From the NCBI GenBank assembly GCA_019639095.1, contig JAHBSN010000003.1, positions 1 through 38,957 on the forward strand: a DNA stretch of 38,957 nt, written 5' to 3'. Position numbers and translations under genes: made by a program. The notes under the pieces were generated by a model. It searched no databases. It had not been told where the DNA came from and saw only the letters and a list, made by a program, of their open reading frames with translations. The DNA comes from Actinomycetota bacterium (lineage in GTDB: Bacteria > Actinomycetota > Acidimicrobiia > Acidimicrobiales > Iamiaceae). Positions within the stretch are counted from its first letter, which is position 1, and each line of letters begins with the position of its first letter. Positions 20,763 to 37,427 of the stretch are shown here, piece by piece.

Positions 20763-20780
20763 ACTAGAACGTGTTCTAGT
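20763..20780. promoter_or_regulatory. KstR-like operator before the Rieske oxygenase gene
   Basis: Perfect 8-base arms ACTAGAAC / GTTCTAGT around GT. It fits the published KstR core TnnAACnnGTTnnA exactly and ends 25 bases before ATG 20806. Confidence 0.88.
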
Positions 20781-20805
20781 TCTTCCTCGAGAACAGGTGC
20801 CCGCC

Positions 20806-21864
20806 ATGTCCGATGCGCCCGCCAACCGCTACCCCTTCACCATGCCCTTCGGCTGGTTCGCGGTGGCCGAGACCCCCGACGTCTCCGTCGGCGACGCAAA
20901 GGCCGCGTACTACTTCGACACGCACCTCGTGCTGTGGCGCGACGACACCGGCGAGGTGCACGTGCAGGACGCGTTCTGCCCGCACCTCGGCGCCCACCTC
21001 GGCCACGGCGGGATCGTCGACAACTGCCAGATCGTCTGCCCCTTCCACGGCTGGAAGTTCGACGCCGAGGGCGCCAACACCGAGATCCCCTACTCCGAGC
21101 GGATCAACCGCAGCGCCAAGCTGCGCACCTACCCCGTGGCCGAGCGCAACGGGTTCATCTACGCCTGGTACCACCCGCAGGAGGAGCCGCCCTCCTACGA
21201 GATCCCCGAGGTGGACGAGCTCGTGAACGGCGAGTTCAGCGGGCCCACCAAGACCAACCACATCGTGGAGACGGGCATCCAGGAGATGGCCGAGAACGGG
21301 GTGGACTCGGCCCACTTCCGCTACGTCCACAACGTCGACGAGGTGCCGGTGATCCAGCGCTACGACATCGACGGGCACCGCACGATCATGGAGTCCAAGC
21401 AGCGCTTCCCCACGCCCCGAGGCGTGGTCGACGGTCGCATCGATGCCACCGCCGAGGGCCCCGGCGTCAGCGTGGTGCGCTTCAGCGGGATCATCGACAC
21501 GGTGCTGGTCACGGCGTCGACGCCCATCAGGTCCGACCAGACCGAGACCCGCTTCCACTTCTACGTGCGCAACATGGGCGACGAGGCCACCAACTCCACC
21601 GTTGGCCAGGCCTTCGCCGCCGAGGTCGACAAGCAGTTCGTGGAGGACATGCCGATCTGGGAGCACAAGGCCCACCTGGTGCGCCCGGCGCTCGCCGACA
21701 CCGACGGCCCGTTCATGAAGTTCCGCAAGTGGTACTCGCAGTTCTACGCCGAGGACATCAGCGACGACCGCACGGTGTTCCCGCCGCCCTACTGGCCCGA
21801 GAAGATGGACGAGACGCCGGCCAAGGCCACCGCCTCGGCCAAGTACGGCTCGCCCACCACCTGA
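20806..21864 (+). CDS. Rieske non-haem iron oxygenase (KshA-like)
   Basis: 352-residue terminal oxygenase. The Rieske [2Fe-2S] motif is C58-x-H60 and C78-x2-H81 (FCPHLGAH, CPFHGWKF). Mononuclear iron ligands fit N164-x2-D167-x2-H170-x4-H175 (ENGVDSAHFRYVHN). In a KstR-type regulon the natural candidate is 3-ketosteroid 9-alpha-hydroxylase oxygenase (KshA), which opens the sterol ring with reductase KshB. Another sterol-acting Rieske enzyme (a 7-desaturase type) is possible. No reductase gene is nearby. ATG 20806 is used; GTG 20797 would add three residues. Confidence 0.87.
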   Translation: MSDAPANRYPFTMPFGWFAVAETPDVSVGDAKAAYYFDTHLVLWRDDTGEVHVQDAFCPHLGAHLGHGGIVDNCQIVCPFHGWKFDAEGANTEIPYSERINRSAKLRTYPVAERNGFIYAWYHPQEEPPSYEIPEVDELVNGEFSGPTKTNHIVETGIQEMAENGVDSAHFRYVHNVDEVPVIQRYDIDGHRTIMESKQRFPTPRGVVDGRIDATAEGPGVSVVRFSGIIDTVLVTASTPIRSDQTETRFHFYVRNMGDEATNSTVGQAFAAEVDKQFVEDMPIWEHKAHLVRPALADTDGPFMKFRKWYSQFYAEDISDDRTVFPPPYWPEKMDETPAKATASAKYGSPTT

Positions 21865-23860: not shown

Positions 23861-25030
23861 TCAGGGCTTCTCGGTGCCCACCACCCACATGGCGAAGAAC
23901 TGCGAGCCGCCGCCGTAGGCGTGGCCCACGGCCTTGCGGACGCCGTCGATCTGATGCTCGCCGGCGGTGCCGCGCACCTGCATGGCGGCCTCGGCGAAGC
24001 GCAGCATGCCCGATGCCCCGATGGGGTTGGTGCAGAGCACGCCGCCCGACATGTTCACCGGGAGGTCGCCGTCCATGGCGGTGGCGCCGGCCTCGGTCAT
24101 CTTCCAACCCTCGCCGGGCTCGGCGAAGCCGAGGTTCTCGAGCCACATCGGCTCGAACCACGAGAACGGCACGTACATCTCGACGGCGTCGACGTCCTTG
24201 CGGGGGTTGGTGATCCCCGCCTGGCGGTAGACGTCGGCGGCGCACAGCGCCCCGCCGAGGGGGAGCACGGTGTCGCGCTCGGCCGACAGCGTCGGCTCGG
24301 AGCGCATGGCCGTGCCCTGCACCCACGCCGGGGTCCGGCCCTGCGCCTTGGCCTCGTCGGCCACCTTCTCCGACCCGAGGACGAGTGCGCACGCGCCGTC
24401 GCTCGAGGGGCAGGTCTCGGCGTAGCGGATCGGGTCCCACAGCATCATCGACTCCTTGATGGAGTCGAAGGAGATGTCGTGCTCGTGGAGGTGGGCGTAG
24501 GGGTTCTTCAGCCCGTTCTGGCGGTCCTTGAGCGCCACCAGCATGCCGATGTGGTCAGGCGCCTTGGCCCGCCGGATGTAGCTGCGGATGTGCGGGGCGA
24601 AGTAGCCGCCGGCGCCGGCGTGGAGCGGCGGGGTGAACGGGATCGGCAGCGAGAGCGCCCACATGGCCTCGCTCTCGGACTGCTTCTCGAACGCCACGGT
24701 GAGCACCCGCTCGTGGATGCCGGCCGAGATCAGCTGGCTGGCCACGATGGCGGTGGAGCCGCCGACCGACCCGGCGGTGTGCACCCGGAACATCGGCTTG
24801 CCCGTGCAGCCCAGCGCGTCGGCCAGGAACAGCTCGGGCATCATCACGCCCTCGAAGAAGTCGGGGGCCTTGCCGATGACCACGGCATCCACGTCGGTCC
24901 AGGTCATCTCGGCGTCGGCGAGGGCGCGCTGGGCGGCCTCGCGGAGCAGGCCGGCCACGGAGACGTCGCCCCGGGTGGCCTCGTGCTTGGTCTGGCCGAT
25001 GCCGACCACGGCGACGCGTTCGTGGCCCAT
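23861..25030 (-). CDS. ltp3: Thiolase-fold steroid aldolase/lipid-transfer protein, Ltp3-like
   Basis: 389 residues, close to mycobacterial Ltp3 (Rv3523, 394 residues as I recall). Thiolase superfamily: DVDAVVIGKAPDFFEGVMMP, AGSVGGSTAI and GGVLCTNPIGASG. The segment that holds the nucleophilic Cys in thiolases (FRVHTAGSVGGSTA, 81-94) has no Cys, and the usual HPxG is NPIG. This fits the Ltp2/Ltp3/Ltp4 group, which cleave sterol side chains by a retro-aldol step with DUF35 partners, rather than true thiolases. Start overlaps the Ltp4 stop (TGATG). Confidence 0.85.
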   Translation of the reverse strand: MGHERVAVVGIGQTKHEATRGDVSVAGLLREAAQRALADAEMTWTDVDAVVIGKAPDFFEGVMMPELFLADALGCTGKPMFRVHTAGSVGGSTAIVASQLISAGIHERVLTVAFEKQSESEAMWALSLPIPFTPPLHAGAGGYFAPHIRSYIRRAKAPDHIGMLVALKDRQNGLKNPYAHLHEHDISFDSIKESMMLWDPIRYAETCPSSDGACALVLGSEKVADEAKAQGRTPAWVQGTAMRSEPTLSAERDTVLPLGGALCAADVYRQAGITNPRKDVDAVEMYVPFSWFEPMWLENLGFAEPGEGWKMTEAGATAMDGDLPVNMSGGVLCTNPIGASGMLRFAEAAMQVRGTAGEHQIDGVRKAVGHAYGGGSQFFAMWVVGTEKP

Positions 25031-26088
25031 CAGTTCTCACCTTCCAGGACGCAGACCAGGTTCTGTTGCAGGCAGGGCCCGCTGGTGGCGTGGGCCACGC
25101 CGCGGTTCGCCTCGCCCGACCAGATCCGGGAGGCGACCTCGCCGATGCGGATCAGCCCGGCGGTCATCATCGGGTTGGCGGCGAGCGCTCCGCCCGAGGG
25201 GTTGATCGCCGTGCCGTCGCCCAACCCGAGCGCCTCGCGCAGGATGAGCTCCTGGTGCGAGAACGGGGCGTGCAGCTCGGCCACGTCGACCTCGCCTCCG
25301 GCCACGCCGGCCTTCTCGCCGGCGATGCGGGTGCTCTCGCTGACCGTGAGGTCCCGCAGGCCGAGGTGGATCGGCTCCACGCGGTGGTCGATGCCCCGGA
25401 TCCACGCCGGGCGGGACACCTTGGACCGGGCGACGTCGCCGGCGGCCAGGATCACGCAGGCGGCGCCATCGGTGATCGGGGGGCAGTCGCTCTTGCGGAG
25501 CGGGGCGATGTGGTACCCGTCGGCGAGCAGGTCGTCGGCGGGGCGATCCCACGCCAGCTGCGCGTTGGGGTTGTCCAGGGCGCTGCGGCGGCTGCGGGCG
25601 GCCACCTCGGCGAGGTCGGCCTCGGTGGCCTTGCCGGCGTCGAGCAGGGCCCGGGCCTGCAGGGCGGCAAGGCTCACCGAGTCGGCCCACAGGGGGGCCA
25701 CGGTGATGGGGTCGAGCTGGCGGGTGAGGACCATGGGCAGGTCGCCCGGAGACGACTTGGCGTAGGCGTACACCAGGGCGGTGTCGATCTCGCCGAGCTG
25801 GAGCTTCACCCAGGCCTCGTAGAGCGCCCAGGCGCCGTCCATCTCCACGTGGCTCTCCTGGATGGGAGGCCACGGGCCCACGCCGTCGAGCGTGGACACG
25901 AAGCTGAAGGCGGTGCCGGCCAGGTAGTCGGTGGAGCCCGAGCAGGTGAAGCCGATGTCGTCGATGGTCATGTCGACCTTGGCCAGCGCGCCGTGGATGG
26001 CGGGCATCAGCATCTCGACCTCGTTGAGCTCGGGGACGCTGCGCCGGGCCGGGGTCTGGTCGAACGAGATGATCGCGATGTCTCGCAT
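25030..26088 (-). CDS. ltp4: Thiolase-fold steroid aldolase/lipid-transfer protein, Ltp4-like
   Basis: 352 residues, matching Ltp4 (Rv3522, about 354). Thiolase fold beginning MRDIAIISFDQTPARR; segments IGFTCSGSTDYLAG, PITDGAACVILAAGD and SGGALAANPMMTAGLI. The catalytic Cys segment (IQESHVEMDGAWAL) has none and HPxG is NPMM, so it is unlikely to be a conventional thiolase. In Rhodococcus, Ltp3 and Ltp4 are needed to remove C24-branched (plant sterol) side chains. The gene joins its neighbours by one-base TGATG overlaps, implying equal production. Confidence 0.85.
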   Translation of the reverse strand: MRDIAIISFDQTPARRSVPELNEVEMLMPAIHGALAKVDMTIDDIGFTCSGSTDYLAGTAFSFVSTLDGVGPWPPIQESHVEMDGAWALYEAWVKLQLGEIDTALVYAYAKSSPGDLPMVLTRQLDPITVAPLWADSVSLAALQARALLDAGKATEADLAEVAARSRRSALDNPNAQLAWDRPADDLLADGYHIAPLRKSDCPPITDGAACVILAAGDVARSKVSRPAWIRGIDHRVEPIHLGLRDLTVSESTRIAGEKAGVAGGEVDVAELHAPFSHQELILREALGLGDGTAINPSGGALAANPMMTAGLIRIGEVASRIWSGEANRGVAHATSGPCLQQNLVCVLEGEN

Positions 26089-26717
26089 CAGCCCTCACCT
26101 CCGTCGGCCTCGGTGCCGCCCACGCCGGTGCGGGGGTTGCGCACCACCAGCTCGGTGGGGGCCACGCCACCGACCCACGAGCCGAGGCCGGTGCCGCGCT
26201 TCTCGCCGGGGATGCGCACGTTCACGTCGTCGGGCTCGCCGGTGGGGCGGAACCACTTGATCGATTCGAGGGTGGGCTCGATGTCGGCGTCGTCGCGCCA
26301 CACCGCCTCCACCCGCATGCCGATGCGCACCTGGTCGGCGGGGATCTCCTGGATGAGGTGCATGATCGAGAGGTCGGCGCCGTCCAGCAGGATCAAGGCG
26401 CTCGTGTAGGGGATCTCCATGCCCGAGCCGTAGAACTGGAGGTTCACGACGCAGAACGAGGTGACGGTGCCCACCTGGGCCACCTCGACCTCGATGGGGG
26501 TGGCGGCGCCCAGCTCGGGGTCGGCGCCGCGAGGCGGCACGTAGACCTTGCTCTGGGGCGTGGCCTGCTGGCCGATGATCTTCTTCTGGGTGATGCCCCG
26601 GAGGAAGCGGCTCGTGGCGTCGCCGGCGGTGAAGGTGTAGTCGAGCTGCGCCGGCGTGCGGACCGAGCGCACCGGCTCGACGTCGCGCAGCGAGGCGGGC
26701 AGTTGGATCTCGGGCAT
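26088..26717 (-). CDS. DUF35 OB-fold protein, second copy (Ltp partner)
   Basis: 209-residue protein with the rubredoxin-like stub and OB fold of DUF35 (ChsH2-C type), which bind thiolase-like aldolases and help position CoA substrates. The conserved VYVPPRG is present (FLRGITQKKIIGQQATPQSK before it), but the four zinc-ribbon cysteines expected around it are missing. The OB strands follow (EVEVAQVGTVTSFCVVNLQF, IRIGMRVEAVW). It overlaps both neighbours by one base. In M. tuberculosis the single gene Rv3521 occupies this position. Confidence 0.85.
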   Translation of the reverse strand: MPEIQLPASLRDVEPVRSVRTPAQLDYTFTAGDATSRFLRGITQKKIIGQQATPQSKVYVPPRGADPELGAATPIEVEVAQVGTVTSFCVVNLQFYGSGMEIPYTSALILLDGADLSIMHLIQEIPADQVRIGMRVEAVWRDDADIEPTLESIKWFRPTGEPDDVNVRIPGEKRGTGLGSWVGGVAPTELVVRNPRTGVGGTEADGGEG

Positions 26718-27190
26718 CAGGCCCGGCCTCCTTCGGGGTCGACGAGGGTCCAGTGGGCGATGTCGTCGATGTGGCCCTCGCGCTCGTCGGCCCACACCGG
26801 CTCCACGCGGGCGCCGGTGGAGACGGCCTCGATGCCGGGGGCGGCCAGGGCGCCCAGCATCGGCGTGTCGGCGCCATCGAGCTTGACCAGCACCCAGGCG
26901 AAGGGCTCGTCGAGCGGGTGCTTGGCGTGCGGCTGGGTGACCCAGGCCCACGTGGTGATGACGCCCTGGGGCCCCACCTCCACCAGCTCGGTGAGGTCCT
27001 CGCCCGACACGGGGTCGAACTCGGCCGGCGGCACCAGCACCCGGCCGTCCTCGGCGCGCGATCCCACCAGGACCCGCTCGCGCAGGCCGGTGAGGAAGGC
27101 GCCGATCACCGGTCCGGTGGTGCGCTTGAACGGGTATTCGATGATGAGCGGGGCGGAGAGGATCTCCCCCGGGTCCTGACGATCCGTCAC
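26717..27190 (-). CDS. DUF35 OB-fold protein, first copy (operon leader)
   Basis: 157-residue DUF35-type protein: IGAFLTGLRERVLVGSRAEDGRVLVPPAEFDP resembles the linker/zinc-ribbon region, again without cysteines, followed by OB-fold strands (LTELVEVGPQGVITTWAWVT, PFAWVLVKLDGADTPMLG). GTG 27190 is 10 bases from a KstR-like site, which implies a very short leader. It heads the four-gene operon DUF35-DUF35-ltp4-ltp3; all three junctions are TGATG. With the next gene it may form a heteromeric OB platform. Confidence 0.85.
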   Translation of the reverse strand: MTDRQDPGEILSAPLIIEYPFKRTTGPVIGAFLTGLRERVLVGSRAEDGRVLVPPAEFDPVSGEDLTELVEVGPQGVITTWAWVTQPHAKHPLDEPFAWVLVKLDGADTPMLGALAAPGIEAVSTGARVEPVWADEREGHIDDIAHWTLVDPEGGRA

Positions 27191-27199
27191 GCGGCGAAT

Positions 27200-27217
27200 A
27201 CTAGAACACGTTTCACT
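27200..27217. promoter_or_regulatory. KstR-like operator before the DUF35-ltp operon
   Basis: ACTAGAAC-AC-GTTTCACT: perfect left arm, degenerate right arm. The AAC-NN-GTT core is kept. It is 10 bases from the GTG start of the operon. Confidence 0.65.
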
Positions 27218-27314: not shown

Positions 27315-28394
27315 TCAGAAGGTGATGACCTGGCGGATGACCTCGCCGCGCTTCATGGCGTCGAAGGCGTCGTTGATGTCGTCGAGCTTCATCTTCGTGG
27401 TGATCATGCCCTCGAGGTCGAGCTGGCCGGCCTTCCACAGGCGCAGCAGCTTGTGGAAGTCCGAGCGCACGTCCACCGAGCCGTAGTAGCTGCCCATGAA
27501 GGTCTTCTCGGAGAAGAAGAGCTCGAACCCGTTGAACGAGACCTCCTTGTCCATGGCGCCCACGCCGATGATGCAGGCGGTGCCCCCGCGGCGCACCGCG
27601 TCGAACGCGGCGCGCATGGTGACGGGCAGGCCGATCGCCTCGAAGGCGTAGTCGAAGCCGTCGCCGGTGAGCTCGGCCTGCAGCGCGGCGAGGTCGTCGG
27701 GCTTGCAGGCGTGGGTGGCGCCGAAGGTCTTGGCGGTCTCGAGCTTCTCGTCCACCAGGTCGACCGCCACGATGATGGCGGCGCCGGCCACGTGGGCGCC
27801 CTGGATGGCGGAGATGCCCACGCCGCCGCAGCCGAAGACCACCACCGACGAGCCCGGCTTCACCTTGGCGGTGTTGATGGCGGCACCCACGCCGGTGCTC
27901 ACGCCGCAGCCGATCAGCGAGGCGATCTCGAAGGGGACGTCGTCGTCGATCTTGATCGCCGCCTCCTGGGGCAGCGTGAGGTACTCGGCGAAGGTGCCGG
28001 TGCCGGCCATGCCGAACACGGGCTCGCCGTTGCGGGTGAACTTGGGCGTGCCGGCGATGGTGAACTGGATCATTACGCACAGGTGCGGCGACTTGCGCTC
28101 CACGCAGTTGTTGCACTTCCCGCAGGGGGGCGACCAGGCCACGATCACGTGGTCGCCCTCGGCCAGTCCGGTGACGCCCTCGCCCACCTCGGTCACGATC
28201 CCGGCGCCCTCGTGGCCGGGCACGAACGGCGCCGGCTGCGGGAGTGAGCCGTTCATCGCGTGGAGGTCGGAGTGGCAGACGCCGGTGGCCTCGATCTTGA
28301 CGGTGACCTCGCCGGGCCCGGGCGGGAGGACCTCCAGGTCGTCGACGATCTCGAGCTTCTCGTCGCCGGTGTTGAGCAGCACGGCTGCGCGCAT
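27315..28394 (-). CDS. Zinc-dependent alcohol dehydrogenase (class III/NDMA-dependent type)
   Basis: 359-residue medium-chain dehydrogenase. Catalytic zinc ligands C40 and H61 (GVCHSDLH, GHEGAG), structural zinc cysteines C91, C94, C97 and C106, and the NAD-binding GCGGVGISAIQGA are present. Segments such as LIGCGVSTGVGAAINTAKV mark the class III-like branch. ATG 28394 follows AAGGGGAG; the longer frame upstream is a His/Thr-rich translation of GGTGGTGTGG repeats and is rejected. A KstR-like site lies 68 bases upstream. It could oxidise the terminal alcohol of the sterol side chain. Confidence 0.92.
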   Translation of the reverse strand: MRAAVLLNTGDEKLEIVDDLEVLPPGPGEVTVKIEATGVCHSDLHAMNGSLPQPAPFVPGHEGAGIVTEVGEGVTGLAEGDHVIVAWSPPCGKCNNCVERKSPHLCVMIQFTIAGTPKFTRNGEPVFGMAGTGTFAEYLTLPQEAAIKIDDDVPFEIASLIGCGVSTGVGAAINTAKVKPGSSVVVFGCGGVGISAIQGAHVAGAAIIVAVDLVDEKLETAKTFGATHACKPDDLAALQAELTGDGFDYAFEAIGLPVTMRAAFDAVRRGGTACIIGVGAMDKEVSFNGFELFFSEKTFMGSYYGSVDVRSDFHKLLRLWKAGQLDLEGMITTKMKLDDINDAFDAMKRGEVIRQVITF

Positions 28395-28462
28395 GGTGGG
28401 ACTCCCCTTGTGGTGCGGACCCCGGGTGGTGTGGACCCTGGTGGTGTGGTGGCGGGGAGCGT

Positions 28463-28480
28463 ACTGCAACACGTTCTAGT
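28463..28480. promoter_or_regulatory. KstR-like operator between alcohol dehydrogenase and deacetylase genes
   Basis: ACTGCAAC-AC-GTTCTAGT, two mismatches between the arms, AAC-NN-GTT core intact. It could serve either or both divergent genes. Confidence 0.65.
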
Positions 28481-30765: not shown

Positions 30766-32313
30766 ATGGCTGACCTCGGATTCTGGCGACTGGCGGAAGC
30801 GGACCCGGCGCACCTCGCGCTCGTGGGCCCCGACGGGACGGAGCGCACCGCAGGTGAGCTGCTCGCTGCGTCGCATCGGGCGGCCAACGGGCTCCGGGCG
30901 CTCGGCCTCGAGAACGGCGACACCGTGGCGCTCCTGCTGCCCAACTCCATCGAGCTGATCGAGATCTACCTGGGCGCCCTCGAGATCGGCCTGTACGTGA
31001 CGCCGATCAACTGGCACCTCGTGGGTCCCGAGGTGGCCTACATCCTGGGCGACAGCGACGCGAAGGTCTTCGTGGCCCACGAGCGCTTCGCCGAGGTGGC
31101 CCGCGCTGCGGCCGAGGAGGCCGGGTTCCCGGCCGACCGGTCCTTCGCCGTCGGGACCGTGGACGGCTTCCGGCCGCTGGCCGAGCTCACCGACGGCCAG
31201 CCCGACACCGCACCTGAGGGTCGCACCACCGGTGCCGCCATGCACTACACCTCGGGCACCACCGGTCGGCCGAAGGGCGTCAAGCGCGGGCTGTTCGAGA
31301 TCGACCCGTCGGACATGGGCGAGCTGCTCACCATGCTCCCGGGGCTGTTCGGCGTGGGCGCCCACGACGGCCACGTGCACCTCACGGTGTCGCCGCTCTA
31401 CCACACCGCGGTGCTGATGTGGACCGGCTGCGCCCTGCACCTCGGCCACACCGTGGTGCTCATGGACAAGTGGACCGGCGAGGAGACGCTCCGCCTGATC
31501 GATCGCTACCAGGTCACGTACTCCCACATGGTGCCCACCCAGTTCGTGCGGCTGCTCGACCTCCCCGAGGAGACCCGCGCCGGCTACGACGTCAGCTCGC
31601 TGCGCAACATGATCCACGGCGCCGCGCCCTGCCCCCAGGAGATCAAGCACCGCATGATCGACTGGTGGGGCGACACCATCCAGGAGTACTACGCGGCCAC
31701 CGAGGGCGGCGGCACGGTGATCACCGCGGCCGAGTGGAAGGAGCGTCCGGGCTCGGTGGGCACCGCCTGGCCCGGCAGCGAGATCCGCATCTACGACGAC
31801 GAGGGCAACCAGCTCCCCGCCGGCAAGATCGGCACCGTCTACATGCAGCTCATGGCCGACTTCGAGTACAAGGGCGACTCGGCCAAGACCAAGGCCAACC
31901 GCATCGAGAACTTCTTCACCGTGGGCGACCTCGGCGAGATGGACGAGGCCGGCTACCTGTACCTGCGGGACCGCAAGGCCGACATGATCATCTCGGGCGG
32001 AGCCAACATCTACCCGGCCGAGATCGAGGGCGAGCTCATCAACCACCCGGCCGTCCAGGACGTGGCCGTCTTCGGCATCCCGAACGCCGACTGGGGCGAG
32101 GAGATCAAGGCCGTGGTGGAGCTCCACGAGGGGTTCGAGCCGAGCGACGAGCTCGCCACCGAGATCCTGGCGTGGGCCGGCACCCGGATGGGCAAGTTCA
32201 AGCTGCCCCGCTCGATCGACTTCGTCGACGCGCTGCCCCGCGAGCCCAACGGCAAGCTGATCAAGCGGAAGCTGCGCGACCCGTACTGGGAGGGCGTCGA
32301 CCGCCAGATCTGA
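30766..32313 (+). CDS. Acyl-CoA synthetase (FadD, possibly FadD17-like)
   Basis: 515-residue ANL-superfamily ligase that activates a carboxylic acid through an acyl-adenylate to a CoA ester. P-loop YTSGTTGRPKG (161-171), adenine-binding YYAATEGGG, hinge DRKADMIISGGANIYPAEIE and the catalytic Lys in PNGKLIKRKL are all present. It is controlled by its own KstR-like site. Substrate may be a sterol side-chain acid or a fatty acid; FadD17 is the family member in equivalent mycobacterial clusters, but this is a guess from context. Convergent with kstR, 33 bases apart. Confidence 0.92.
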   Translation: MADLGFWRLAEADPAHLALVGPDGTERTAGELLAASHRAANGLRALGLENGDTVALLLPNSIELIEIYLGALEIGLYVTPINWHLVGPEVAYILGDSDAKVFVAHERFAEVARAAAEEAGFPADRSFAVGTVDGFRPLAELTDGQPDTAPEGRTTGAAMHYTSGTTGRPKGVKRGLFEIDPSDMGELLTMLPGLFGVGAHDGHVHLTVSPLYHTAVLMWTGCALHLGHTVVLMDKWTGEETLRLIDRYQVTYSHMVPTQFVRLLDLPEETRAGYDVSSLRNMIHGAAPCPQEIKHRMIDWWGDTIQEYYAATEGGGTVITAAEWKERPGSVGTAWPGSEIRIYDDEGNQLPAGKIGTVYMQLMADFEYKGDSAKTKANRIENFFTVGDLGEMDEAGYLYLRDRKADMIISGGANIYPAEIEGELINHPAVQDVAVFGIPNADWGEEIKAVVELHEGFEPSDELATEILAWAGTRMGKFKLPRSIDFVDALPREPNGKLIKRKLRDPYWEGVDRQI

Positions 32314-35789: not shown

Positions 35790-37427
35790 ATGGGGTTCAA
35801 CATCGCTGACCTGTTCGAGCGCGCCGTCGACGCGGTGCCCGACCGGCTGGCACTGGTCTGCGGCGACCGCCGCCTCACCTACGCCGAGTTCGAGGAGGAG
35901 GCCAACCGGCTGGCCAACCACCTGCTCGCAGAAGGCTTCGGGCACGGCGACCACATCGGCATCTACGGCCAGAACTCCGCCGAGTGGCTGGTGGCGATGG
36001 TGGCGATCTTCAAGATCCGCGCCGTGCCGATCAACATCAACTTCCGCTACGTGGAGGACGAGCTCGCCTACCTGTTCGACAACGCCGACCTGGTGGCGGT
36101 GGTGCACGACCGCCAGTACGGCCCCCACATCGCCGCCGTCCGACCCCGCGTGCCGGGGCTGCGCCACCTGATCGAGGTCGACGACGGCAGCGACGTGGAC
36201 ACGTCGGCGCTGGGCACGGTGGCGTGGGACGACGTGATGGCGTCGTCGTCGCCCGAGCGACCGGTGCTCGAGCGCTCCGACGACGACCACTACGTGATCT
36301 ACACCGGCGGCACCACCGGCATGCCCAAGGGCGTGGTCTGGCGCCACGAGGACGTCTTCTACGCGCTCGGCGGTGGGGTCGACGCCTACACCAACGAGCG
36401 CGTCACCCACGGCTTCCAGCTGGCCGAGAAGGCGGCGTCCACCGAGAACCCGATGATCAGCCTGAACACCCCGCCGCTCATGCACGGCGCCGCGCAGTGG
36501 GGCGCGCTGCGGTTCCTCTTCGAGGGCGGCACGGTCGTGTTCGTGCCGCGCTTCGACCCGGCGGCGGTGTGGACGGCGGTGGAGCGGGACCACGTGAACA
36601 CGCTGATGATCACCGGCGACGCCATGGCCCGACCGCTGGTGGAGGCGCTCGAGGAGCACCCCGACGCCTGGGACCTCTCGTCGCTGTTCGTGCTGTCGTC
36701 GAGTGCGGCGATCTTCTCGCCAACCGTGAAGGAGCAGATGCTCGACCTGCTGCCGAACATCATCATCGTCGACGCCATCGGCTCGTCGGAGAGCGGCATG
36801 AACGGCATGGCGGTGCAGACGAAGGGCCAGACCGCCACCCACGGCGGTGGCGGGCCCACGGTGCAGGCCGGCCGAGACGCGGTGGTGCTCGACGACGACC
36901 TCAACCCGCTGCCACCGGGCACGGGGGTGGTGGGCAAGCTCGCCCGGGGCGGCAACATCCCCATCGGGTACTACAAGGACCCCGAGAAGACCGCGGCCAA
37001 CTTCGTGGTGGCCCCCGACGGCAACCGCTACGTGGTGGCCGGCGACTTCGCCCTCCACGAGGCCGACGGCACCATCACCCTCCTCGGGCGGGGCTCGGTG
37101 TGCATCAACTCCGGCGGCGAGAAGATCTACCCGGAGGAGGTGGAGGGCGTCCTGAAGGACCATCCCGAGGTCTACGACACGCTCGTGGTGGGCGTGCCCG
37201 ACGACCGCTGGGGCCAGGCCGTGTGCGCCGTGGTCCAGCCCCGCCACCCCGAGGCCCCGCCGTCGCTCGACGAGCTGAACGCCCACTGCCGCCAGCACCT
37301 GGCCGCCTACAAGACGCCCAAGCACCTGGTGGTGGTGGACGAGGTCGTCCGCTCCCCCGCCGGCAAGCCCGACTACCCCTGGGCCGCCGAGGTGGCGAAG
37401 GCCGCCCTGGCCTCGGCCGAGGCCTGA
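35790..37427 (+). CDS. fadD19: Steroid side-chain CoA ligase FadD19-like
   Basis: 545 residues versus about 548 in FadD19 (Rv3515c), which activates the C26/C27 carboxyl of cholesterol and C24-branched sterol side chains. Long shared stretches as I recall them: DAVPDRLALVCGD, YTGGTTGMPKGVVWRHED (from 171), TGDAMARPLVEAL, GGNIPIGYYKDPEKTA, GRGSVCINSGGEKIYPEEVE and VVRSPAGKPDY. All adenylate-forming motifs are intact. With Ltp3/Ltp4 it suggests use of C24-branched plant sterols as well as cholesterol. Confidence 0.92.
   Translation: MGFNIADLFERAVDAVPDRLALVCGDRRLTYAEFEEEANRLANHLLAEGFGHGDHIGIYGQNSAEWLVAMVAIFKIRAVPININFRYVEDELAYLFDNADLVAVVHDRQYGPHIAAVRPRVPGLRHLIEVDDGSDVDTSALGTVAWDDVMASSSPERPVLERSDDDHYVIYTGGTTGMPKGVVWRHEDVFYALGGGVDAYTNERVTHGFQLAEKAASTENPMISLNTPPLMHGAAQWGALRFLFEGGTVVFVPRFDPAAVWTAVERDHVNTLMITGDAMARPLVEALEEHPDAWDLSSLFVLSSSAAIFSPTVKEQMLDLLPNIIIVDAIGSSESGMNGMAVQTKGQTATHGGGGPTVQAGRDAVVLDDDLNPLPPGTGVVGKLARGGNIPIGYYKDPEKTAANFVVAPDGNRYVVAGDFALHEADGTITLLGRGSVCINSGGEKIYPEEVEGVLKDHPEVYDTLVVGVPDDRWGQAVCAVVQPRHPEAPPSLDELNAHCRQHLAAYKTPKHLVVVDEVVRSPAGKPDYPWAAEVAKAALASAEA

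Follow-up and report, generated by a model that had tools for sequence, protein, structure and literature searches.

A sterol-regulon operon in Acidimicrobiia encodes an Ltp3-Ltp4 orthologue with two putative DUF35 scaffold modules

The window analyzed here is a 38,957-nucleotide stretch of DNA from an actinobacterium of the family Iamiaceae (assembly GCA_019639095.1, contig JAHBSN010000003.1, positions 1 to 38,957). Its minus strand carries an operon transcribed in the order D1, D2, ltp4, ltp3, in which D1 and D2 encode DUF35/OB-fold proteins. These four genes are the Acidimicrobiia version of the Ltp3-Ltp4 aldol-lyase, orthologous to the known enzyme. We consider it probable that their products act as a heteromeric, coenzyme A (CoA)-dependent retro-aldolase that cleaves C24-branched sterols, in which Ltp3 is the catalytic subunit, Ltp4 an adapted partner, and D1 and D2 scaffolds.

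The quartet spans positions 27190-23861, and each of its three gene junctions reads TGATG, a one-base overlap that we checked on the sequence. A preliminary description of this DNA had reported these overlaps, and they are present at 3 of 3 junctions, with its coordinates also correct. D1 (26717-27190) starts with GTG and encodes 157 amino acids; D2 (26088-26717, with its ATG at 26717-26715) encodes 209. They are followed by genes for two thiolase-fold proteins of 352 amino acids (25030-26088) and 389 amino acids (23861-25030), which match NCBIfam PRK07937 (538 bits, cutoff 419) and PRK08313 (686 bits, cutoff 514), respectively. Because both gene order and length fit, we assigned the 352-amino-acid protein as Ltp4 and the 389-amino-acid protein as Ltp3; the scores, far above the curated cutoffs, bear out the identities first proposed. 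Across a comparison set of 110 homologous loci (30 genomes plus 80 loci), the order D1-D2-ltp4-ltp3 is found in 108, and the remaining two (L029 and L064) end at contig ends. The proposed set of two thiolase-fold proteins and two DUF35 modules recurs in every one of the 108 loci with enough flanking sequence.

A KstR-type operator, TAGAACACGTTTCA, lies at positions 27202-27215, its last base 12 bp from D1, and matches the KstR consensus TnnAACnnGTTnnA (taken from PMC1995591). Four KstR-type boxes occur in the window, against 0.02 expected, and a related KstR pattern has 37 matches in the source genome, against 5 with a reversed control. The window has the arrangement by which Ltp3 and Ltp4 of the sterol regulon are recognized: an adjacent ltp4-ltp3 pair, with DUF35 genes upstream and a KstR-type box ahead. 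Across the comparison set, 27 of 107 loci, the window's own and 26 others, have a KstR-type box ahead of D1, with approximately none expected after shuffling. The box reads TAGAACCTGTTCTA in ten loci (L006-L014 and L028) that belong to a single actinobacterial family. This sequence is the published operator between Rv3520c and Rv3521, shown to bind KstR there; we call these ten loci mycobacteria-like because their box equals that operator.

Active sites of the thiolase-fold subunits

Neither Ltp3 nor Ltp4 retains the residues of an SCP2-type thiolase, namely, the nucleophile Cys, the HDCF Cys, and the HP His. The nucleophile slot holds G87/S88 in Ltp3 and E82 in Ltp4, and HP is replaced by NP (N335-P336 in Ltp3 and N305-P306 in Ltp4), an Asn-Pro pair that is nearly invariant in both families (n = 109 for Ltp3 and n = 110 for Ltp4, here and below). 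The absence of the thiolase Cys and the change from HP to NP, as originally noted for the two window proteins, extend across approximately 110 relatives.

Alignment to PDB chain 6ok1_A places Tyr294 of Ltp2 (YDHF) at Tyr286 of Ltp3 (YVPF) and at His273 of Ltp4 (HAPF). Tyr286 is invariant (109/109); at the equivalent site, Ltp4 proteins carry His (93), Tyr (7), Cys (6), or another residue (4). Ltp3 has two features of an Ltp2/Sal-type aldolase, a non-Cys slot and a Tyr at the HDCF/YDHF position, and Ltp4, with H273, does not. The catalytic residues are Tyr302/Cys304 in CtSal and Tyr294/Tyr344 in TcLtp2 (PMC12329534), and the second residue of neither pair is found in Ltp3: Tyr344 aligns, with an uncertainty of one column, at the HP motif, where Ltp3 has N335/P336, and the Cys304 position is Pro in both Ltp3 (P288) and Ltp4. 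These Ltp3 residues are invariant or nearly so.

Every Ltp4 lacks approximately 17 residues after HAPF (23 to 26 residues, versus 40 to 42). Despite this shortened segment, the predicted structure of Ltp4 is a complete thiolase fold (predicted local distance difference test [pLDDT], 90; predicted template modeling score [pTM], 0.91), and its closest fold is 6et9, the thiolase of an archaeal DUF35 complex (Z score of 47.5; root mean square deviation of 2.0 over 349 residues). Near the cleft loops of Ltp4 itself, many residues are invariant (E78, H80, D84, H333, Q341, and N343). The model that accounts for the residue pattern most economically has Ltp3 as the catalytic subunit and Ltp4 as its adapted partner, as in ChsH1-ChsH2, a pair in which one subunit is inert (PMC11321319).

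Two DUF35 modules, split or fused

Both DUF35 proteins match the OB domain PF01796 (OB_ChsH2_C; 52.5 and 41.7 bits, cutoff 27.1), and the zinc-ribbon model PF12172 (zf-ChsH2) gave no match in D1 or D2 of the window. Two fused genes do match PF12172, namely, those from Tsukamurella (58.9 bits) and from locus L017 (31.3 bits). The stub motifs read VPPRG in P0003 (D2) and VPPAE in P0004, and the ribbon Cys positions of D2 are occupied by A, Q, D, and L (D2 residue numbers follow P0003, with one extra leading residue). The window proteins are thus DUF35 proteins that have kept the stub and lack the zinc-ribbon Cys residues, as had been proposed.

The family background differs between the two modules. 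A CxxC..CxxC ribbon is absent from D1 in every lineage of the family set (n = 109), and the only partly conserved Cys near the ribbon region is at position 53, in 17 of 109. Among 109 relatives of D2, 57 have four ribbon Cys residues, 16 have three (the fourth place is usually Asp or His), and 36, including the window protein, have two or fewer. A ribbon-bearing D2 occurs, for example, in Streptomyces. Since D2 keeps three or four ribbon Cys residues in 73 of 109 cases and D1 in none, zinc loss in D2 is lineage specific. On a 76-locus tree of Ltp4 plus Ltp3, the state of the D2 ribbon (three or more Cys versus fewer) changes at least eight times by parsimony; we read these changes as repeated loss because the ribbon of other DUF35 proteins is taken as ancestral, the tree itself being blind to gain versus loss.

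D1 and D2 form one reading frame in 66 of 108 loci and two in 42, and on the same tree the fusion state changes at least four times by parsimony. Aquihabitans sp. G128 shares the split arrangement of the window. A tie between zinc loss and gene splitting was considered and rejected, as the ribbon can be present or absent in fused and split genes alike. In Tsukamurella tyrosinosolvens, one gene (WP_068523306.1, 309 amino acids) encodes two OB stretches and one zinc ribbon. The predicted structure of a fused mycobacteria-like protein (mean pLDDT, 89) contains two successive copies of a strand-helix-strand plus barrel module, whose relative placement is not fixed by the model (pTM, 0.55), and it matches the scaffolds of Ltp2 (6ok1_B), Sal (9myr_B), benzoylsuccinyl-CoA thiolase (7pxp_A), and an archaeal thiolase complex (6esq). 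In PDB sequence searches, D2 matched the ChsH2 DUF35 chain 6ok1_B best (E value of 9e-5), and D1 alone as the query gave no match.

These observations overturn a contrast drawn in the preliminary description, in which mycobacteria have one DUF35 protein where the window has two. All 108 loci with sufficient flanking sequence have both modules, and the Mycobacteriales gene encodes both in tandem; because of this gene fusion, the contrast was rejected. A single DUF35 gene in mycobacteria is correct as a count of genes but most likely not as a count of modules. By the same token, the mycobacteria-like loci with the identical operator, together with the Tsukamurella protein, suggest that Rv3521 most likely carries two aldolase scaffolds in one fused chain.

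Proposed mechanism and alternative readings

By the account given in PMC6678751, which cites Wilbrink 2012, Ltp3-Ltp4 is an already known heteromeric aldol-lyase acting on the C24-C25 bond of C24-branched sterols, and in R. rhodochrous both genes were required for cleavage of C24-branched sterol CoA esters. Phytosterol induces ltp3 and ltp4 approximately 97-fold (PMC6593523). The pathway step and the requirement for ltp3 and ltp4 come from this literature, and the gene order, families, conservation, fusion and zinc history, and operator come from the present analysis; complex formation, the division of labor, and the proton donor are what we infer. The retro-aldolase role initially suggested is supported by the identity of Ltp3 and Ltp4, the published aldol-lyase role, and the conserved Tyr286 of Ltp3. 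As for the substrates suggested with it, 24-hydroxy sterol-CoA agrees with the C24-C25 bond genetics (PMC6678751), and 22-hydroxy sterol-CoA does not.

In the proposed mechanism, the C24-branched side chain would undergo C26 oxidation, CoA activation, desaturation, and hydration before cleavage. The C24-C25 bond would then be cut, with propionyl-CoA released from sitosterol and acetyl-CoA from campesterol. Tyr286 of Ltp3 would take the proton of the tertiary 24-hydroxyl; the C-C bond would break to give a ketone and an acyl-CoA enolate, which would then be reprotonated. Since Ltp3 has Asn/Pro and Pro at the respective sites, the proton donor would differ from Tyr344 of Ltp2 and Cys304 of CtSal; E78, H80, D84, and H333 of Ltp4 are candidates by conservation. 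Ltp4 would be a partner of the thiolase fold whose active site has degenerated, like ChsH2 beside ChsH1; it would probably shape the pocket for the steroid, with a possible contribution across the dimer interface. D1 and D2 would dock on the thiolase-fold subunits as the DUF35 domain of ChsH2 does on Ltp2, with no need for a zinc ribbon. A more specific proposal, which we advance tentatively and regard as possible but doubtful, is an obligate heteromer in which invariant Ltp4 residues supply the general acid across the Ltp3/Ltp4 interface, on two nonequivalent, zinc-dispensable DUF35 scaffolds. If true, such a cross-interface acid would be a third catalytic solution among thiolase-fold aldolases, beside those of Ltp2 and Sal.

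Several points weigh against the assignment of Ltp3 as catalyst and Ltp4 as adapted partner within one complex. The complex is known here from gene linkage, fusion, and residue patterns; association of the four proteins is putative, and the proton donors named above are candidates. Partial correlation of evolutionary distances ties D1 and D2 to Ltp3 (0.35 and 0.37) and not to Ltp4 (0.11 and 0.00), instead of pairing each module with its own subunit, a weak signal that is confounded by kinship and gene length. Deletion of ltp3 or ltp4 in M. neoaurum did not block 4-HBC formation (PMC10398937); this result concerns a different bond, yet it shows that the role is narrow. Finally, the invariant cleft-loop residues mean that Ltp4 may have chemistry of its own. 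Both subunits would then be catalytic, Ltp3 via Tyr286 and Ltp4 via E78, H80, D84, and H333 for a second step or substrate, for example on the branch carbon. The Ltp4 invariants are indeed grouped near two loops, that of the nucleophile and the C-terminal HATSG loop, and the proposed pathway includes a C28 carboxylation before cleavage that has no assigned enzyme (PMC6678751). However, the Ltp4 site equivalent to the catalytic Tyr/His varies, and the adjoining 17-residue segment is gone in every Ltp4, as expected of a partner freed from that chemistry; we therefore regard two catalytic subunits as unlikely.

The division of labor between Ltp3 and Ltp4 is also to be weighed against readings that dispense with an aldolase or with its scaffolds. 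That D1/D2 is a separate OB-fold protein, with a nucleic acid-binding or regulatory function as suggested for S. hirsuta and Rv3521 homologues, seems very improbable. The RefSeq name of the fused protein is "OB-fold nucleic acid binding domain-containing protein," and PMC9782250, which treats the Rv3521 homologue as a hypothetical protein, proposes DNA binding; yet the closest matches in both sequence and fold (6ok1_B, 9myr_B, 7pxp_A, and 6esq) are DUF35 proteins that partner thiolase-fold enzymes, and D1/D2 always lies directly upstream of ltp4-ltp3. The evidence favors a pair of aldolase scaffolds over the DNA-binding idea. We give slightly less credence still to a genuine thiolase or acyltransferase whose catalytic Cys has moved, as the thiolase fold and the near-invariant C207 (Ltp3) and C49 (Ltp4) might suggest. 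These are the only near-invariant Cys residues, and neither lies in the nucleophile loop; at the position of C339, just 84 of 110 Ltp4 proteins have Cys. In approximately 110 relatives, none of the three thiolase positions (nucleophile slot, HDCF, and HP) holds a conserved Cys, and C207 aligns with the nonnucleophile C226 of SCP2-thiolase. Family conservation thus rejects a displaced nucleophile Cys; it is such a displacement that the preliminary description had said would count against its reading.

The Ltp3-Ltp4 aldol-lyase itself is known; no description of the paired, often zinc-free scaffolds or of the missing usual proton donor was found in the available literature. Ltp3 and Ltp4 act at one of the less characterized steps in phytosterol side-chain removal, a process used industrially for steroid drugs, and in M. 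tuberculosis the operon belongs to the KstR regulon. From the comparison, the unannotated Rv3521 receives a specific assignment, most likely as two aldolase scaffolds fused in one protein, and Ltp3 is predicted to be the catalytic subunit. Natural variants differ both in scaffold fusion and in the presence of zinc, which lets the role of the zinc finger be tested by comparison.

Neighboring genes and comparison with known systems

Other genes in the window carry KstR-type boxes. A perfect palindromic box, TAGAACGTGTTCTA, at 20765-20778 lies just ahead of a KshA-like Rieske oxygenase gene (20797-21864, plus strand; KshA C-terminal domain, 132.6 bits); the proximity of this putative KshA gene, under a separate KstR box, counts in favor of a sterol aldolase. 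Directly upstream of the operon, a box at 28465-28478 overlaps the listed start of a zinc alcohol dehydrogenase gene (27315-28472, minus strand) whose product is nearest to NDMA-dependent alcohol dehydrogenases, yet scores under that family's cutoff. Two acyl-CoA synthetases are encoded nearby, at 30766-32313 and 35790-37427 (both plus strand); the latter matches PRK07798 (753 bits, cutoff 543) and possibly activates sterol side chains with CoA. Outside Actinomycetota, KstR-type boxes occur upstream of D1 in metagenome-assembled genomes of Deltaproteobacteria/Myxococcota (L070, L072, L083, L087, and L098), which suggests that the operon was transferred together with its regulator or with the entire regulon. 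The ltp4-ltp3 pair is also found on records labeled plasmids, namely, Tsukamurella tyrosinosolvens plasmid 4 (L126, 86.6 kb) and Nocardia farcinica plasmid 2 (L125).

The closest known system is Ltp3-Ltp4 with Rv3521 (Rv3521-Rv3523 in M. tuberculosis; ltp3/ltp4 in Rhodococcus rhodochrous), which has the same pair order, DUF35 and a KstR operator ahead, and the PRK07937 and PRK08313 families. The DUF35 modules are two genes in the window and, as predicted for Rv3521, one fused gene there. Ltp2-ChsH2(DUF35) (PDB 6ok1) shares a thiolase fold without the nucleophile Cys, a Tyr294 equivalent to Tyr286 of Ltp3, and a DUF35 partner; it differs in being a homodimeric aldolase with one DUF35 type, a four-Cys zinc finger, and a C3 side chain as the substrate, and its acid, Tyr344, is missing from both Ltp3 and Ltp4. 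Elsewhere in the source genome (L036, contig C112), an Ltp2-like gene (1495-2676; YDSF and THP motifs; 260 bits, under the PRK07855 cutoff of 469) is followed by a gene for a DUF35 protein that keeps its zinc Cys residues; the closest solved structure is 4u4e, a putative thiolase.

Sal-Shy(DUF35) (PDB 9myr) likewise shares a thiolase-fold aldolase, with Tyr302 as the base, and a DUF35 scaffold; Ltp3 has Asn-Pro at the Sal Gln352 site. It differs in its Cys304 acid (Pro288 in Ltp3), Cys3His1 zinc finger, bile-acid C5 side chain, and homodimeric form. Unlike the zinc finger-bearing DUF35 partners of Ltp2 and Sal, D1 and D2 of the window have the OB domain and no ribbon Cys. A further pair of source genome genes (L037, contig C423) encodes a 3-hydroxy-3-methylglutaryl-CoA (HMG-CoA)-synthase-like protein, recognized by eye and apparently fused to a C-terminal DUF35 domain (42-1487), and, directly following, an SCP2-type thiolase with HDCF and HP motifs (1489-2688); this pair resembles the archaeal thiolase/HMG-CoA synthase/DUF35 complex in a bacterial form with fused parts. 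That archaeal complex (6esq/6et9) and the BbsAB benzoylsuccinyl-CoA thiolase (7pxp) are also assemblies of thiolase-fold and DUF35 proteins; they differ from the Ltp3-Ltp4 system in being named thiolases or a synthase, not aldolases, and in having one thiolase-fold type per DUF35.

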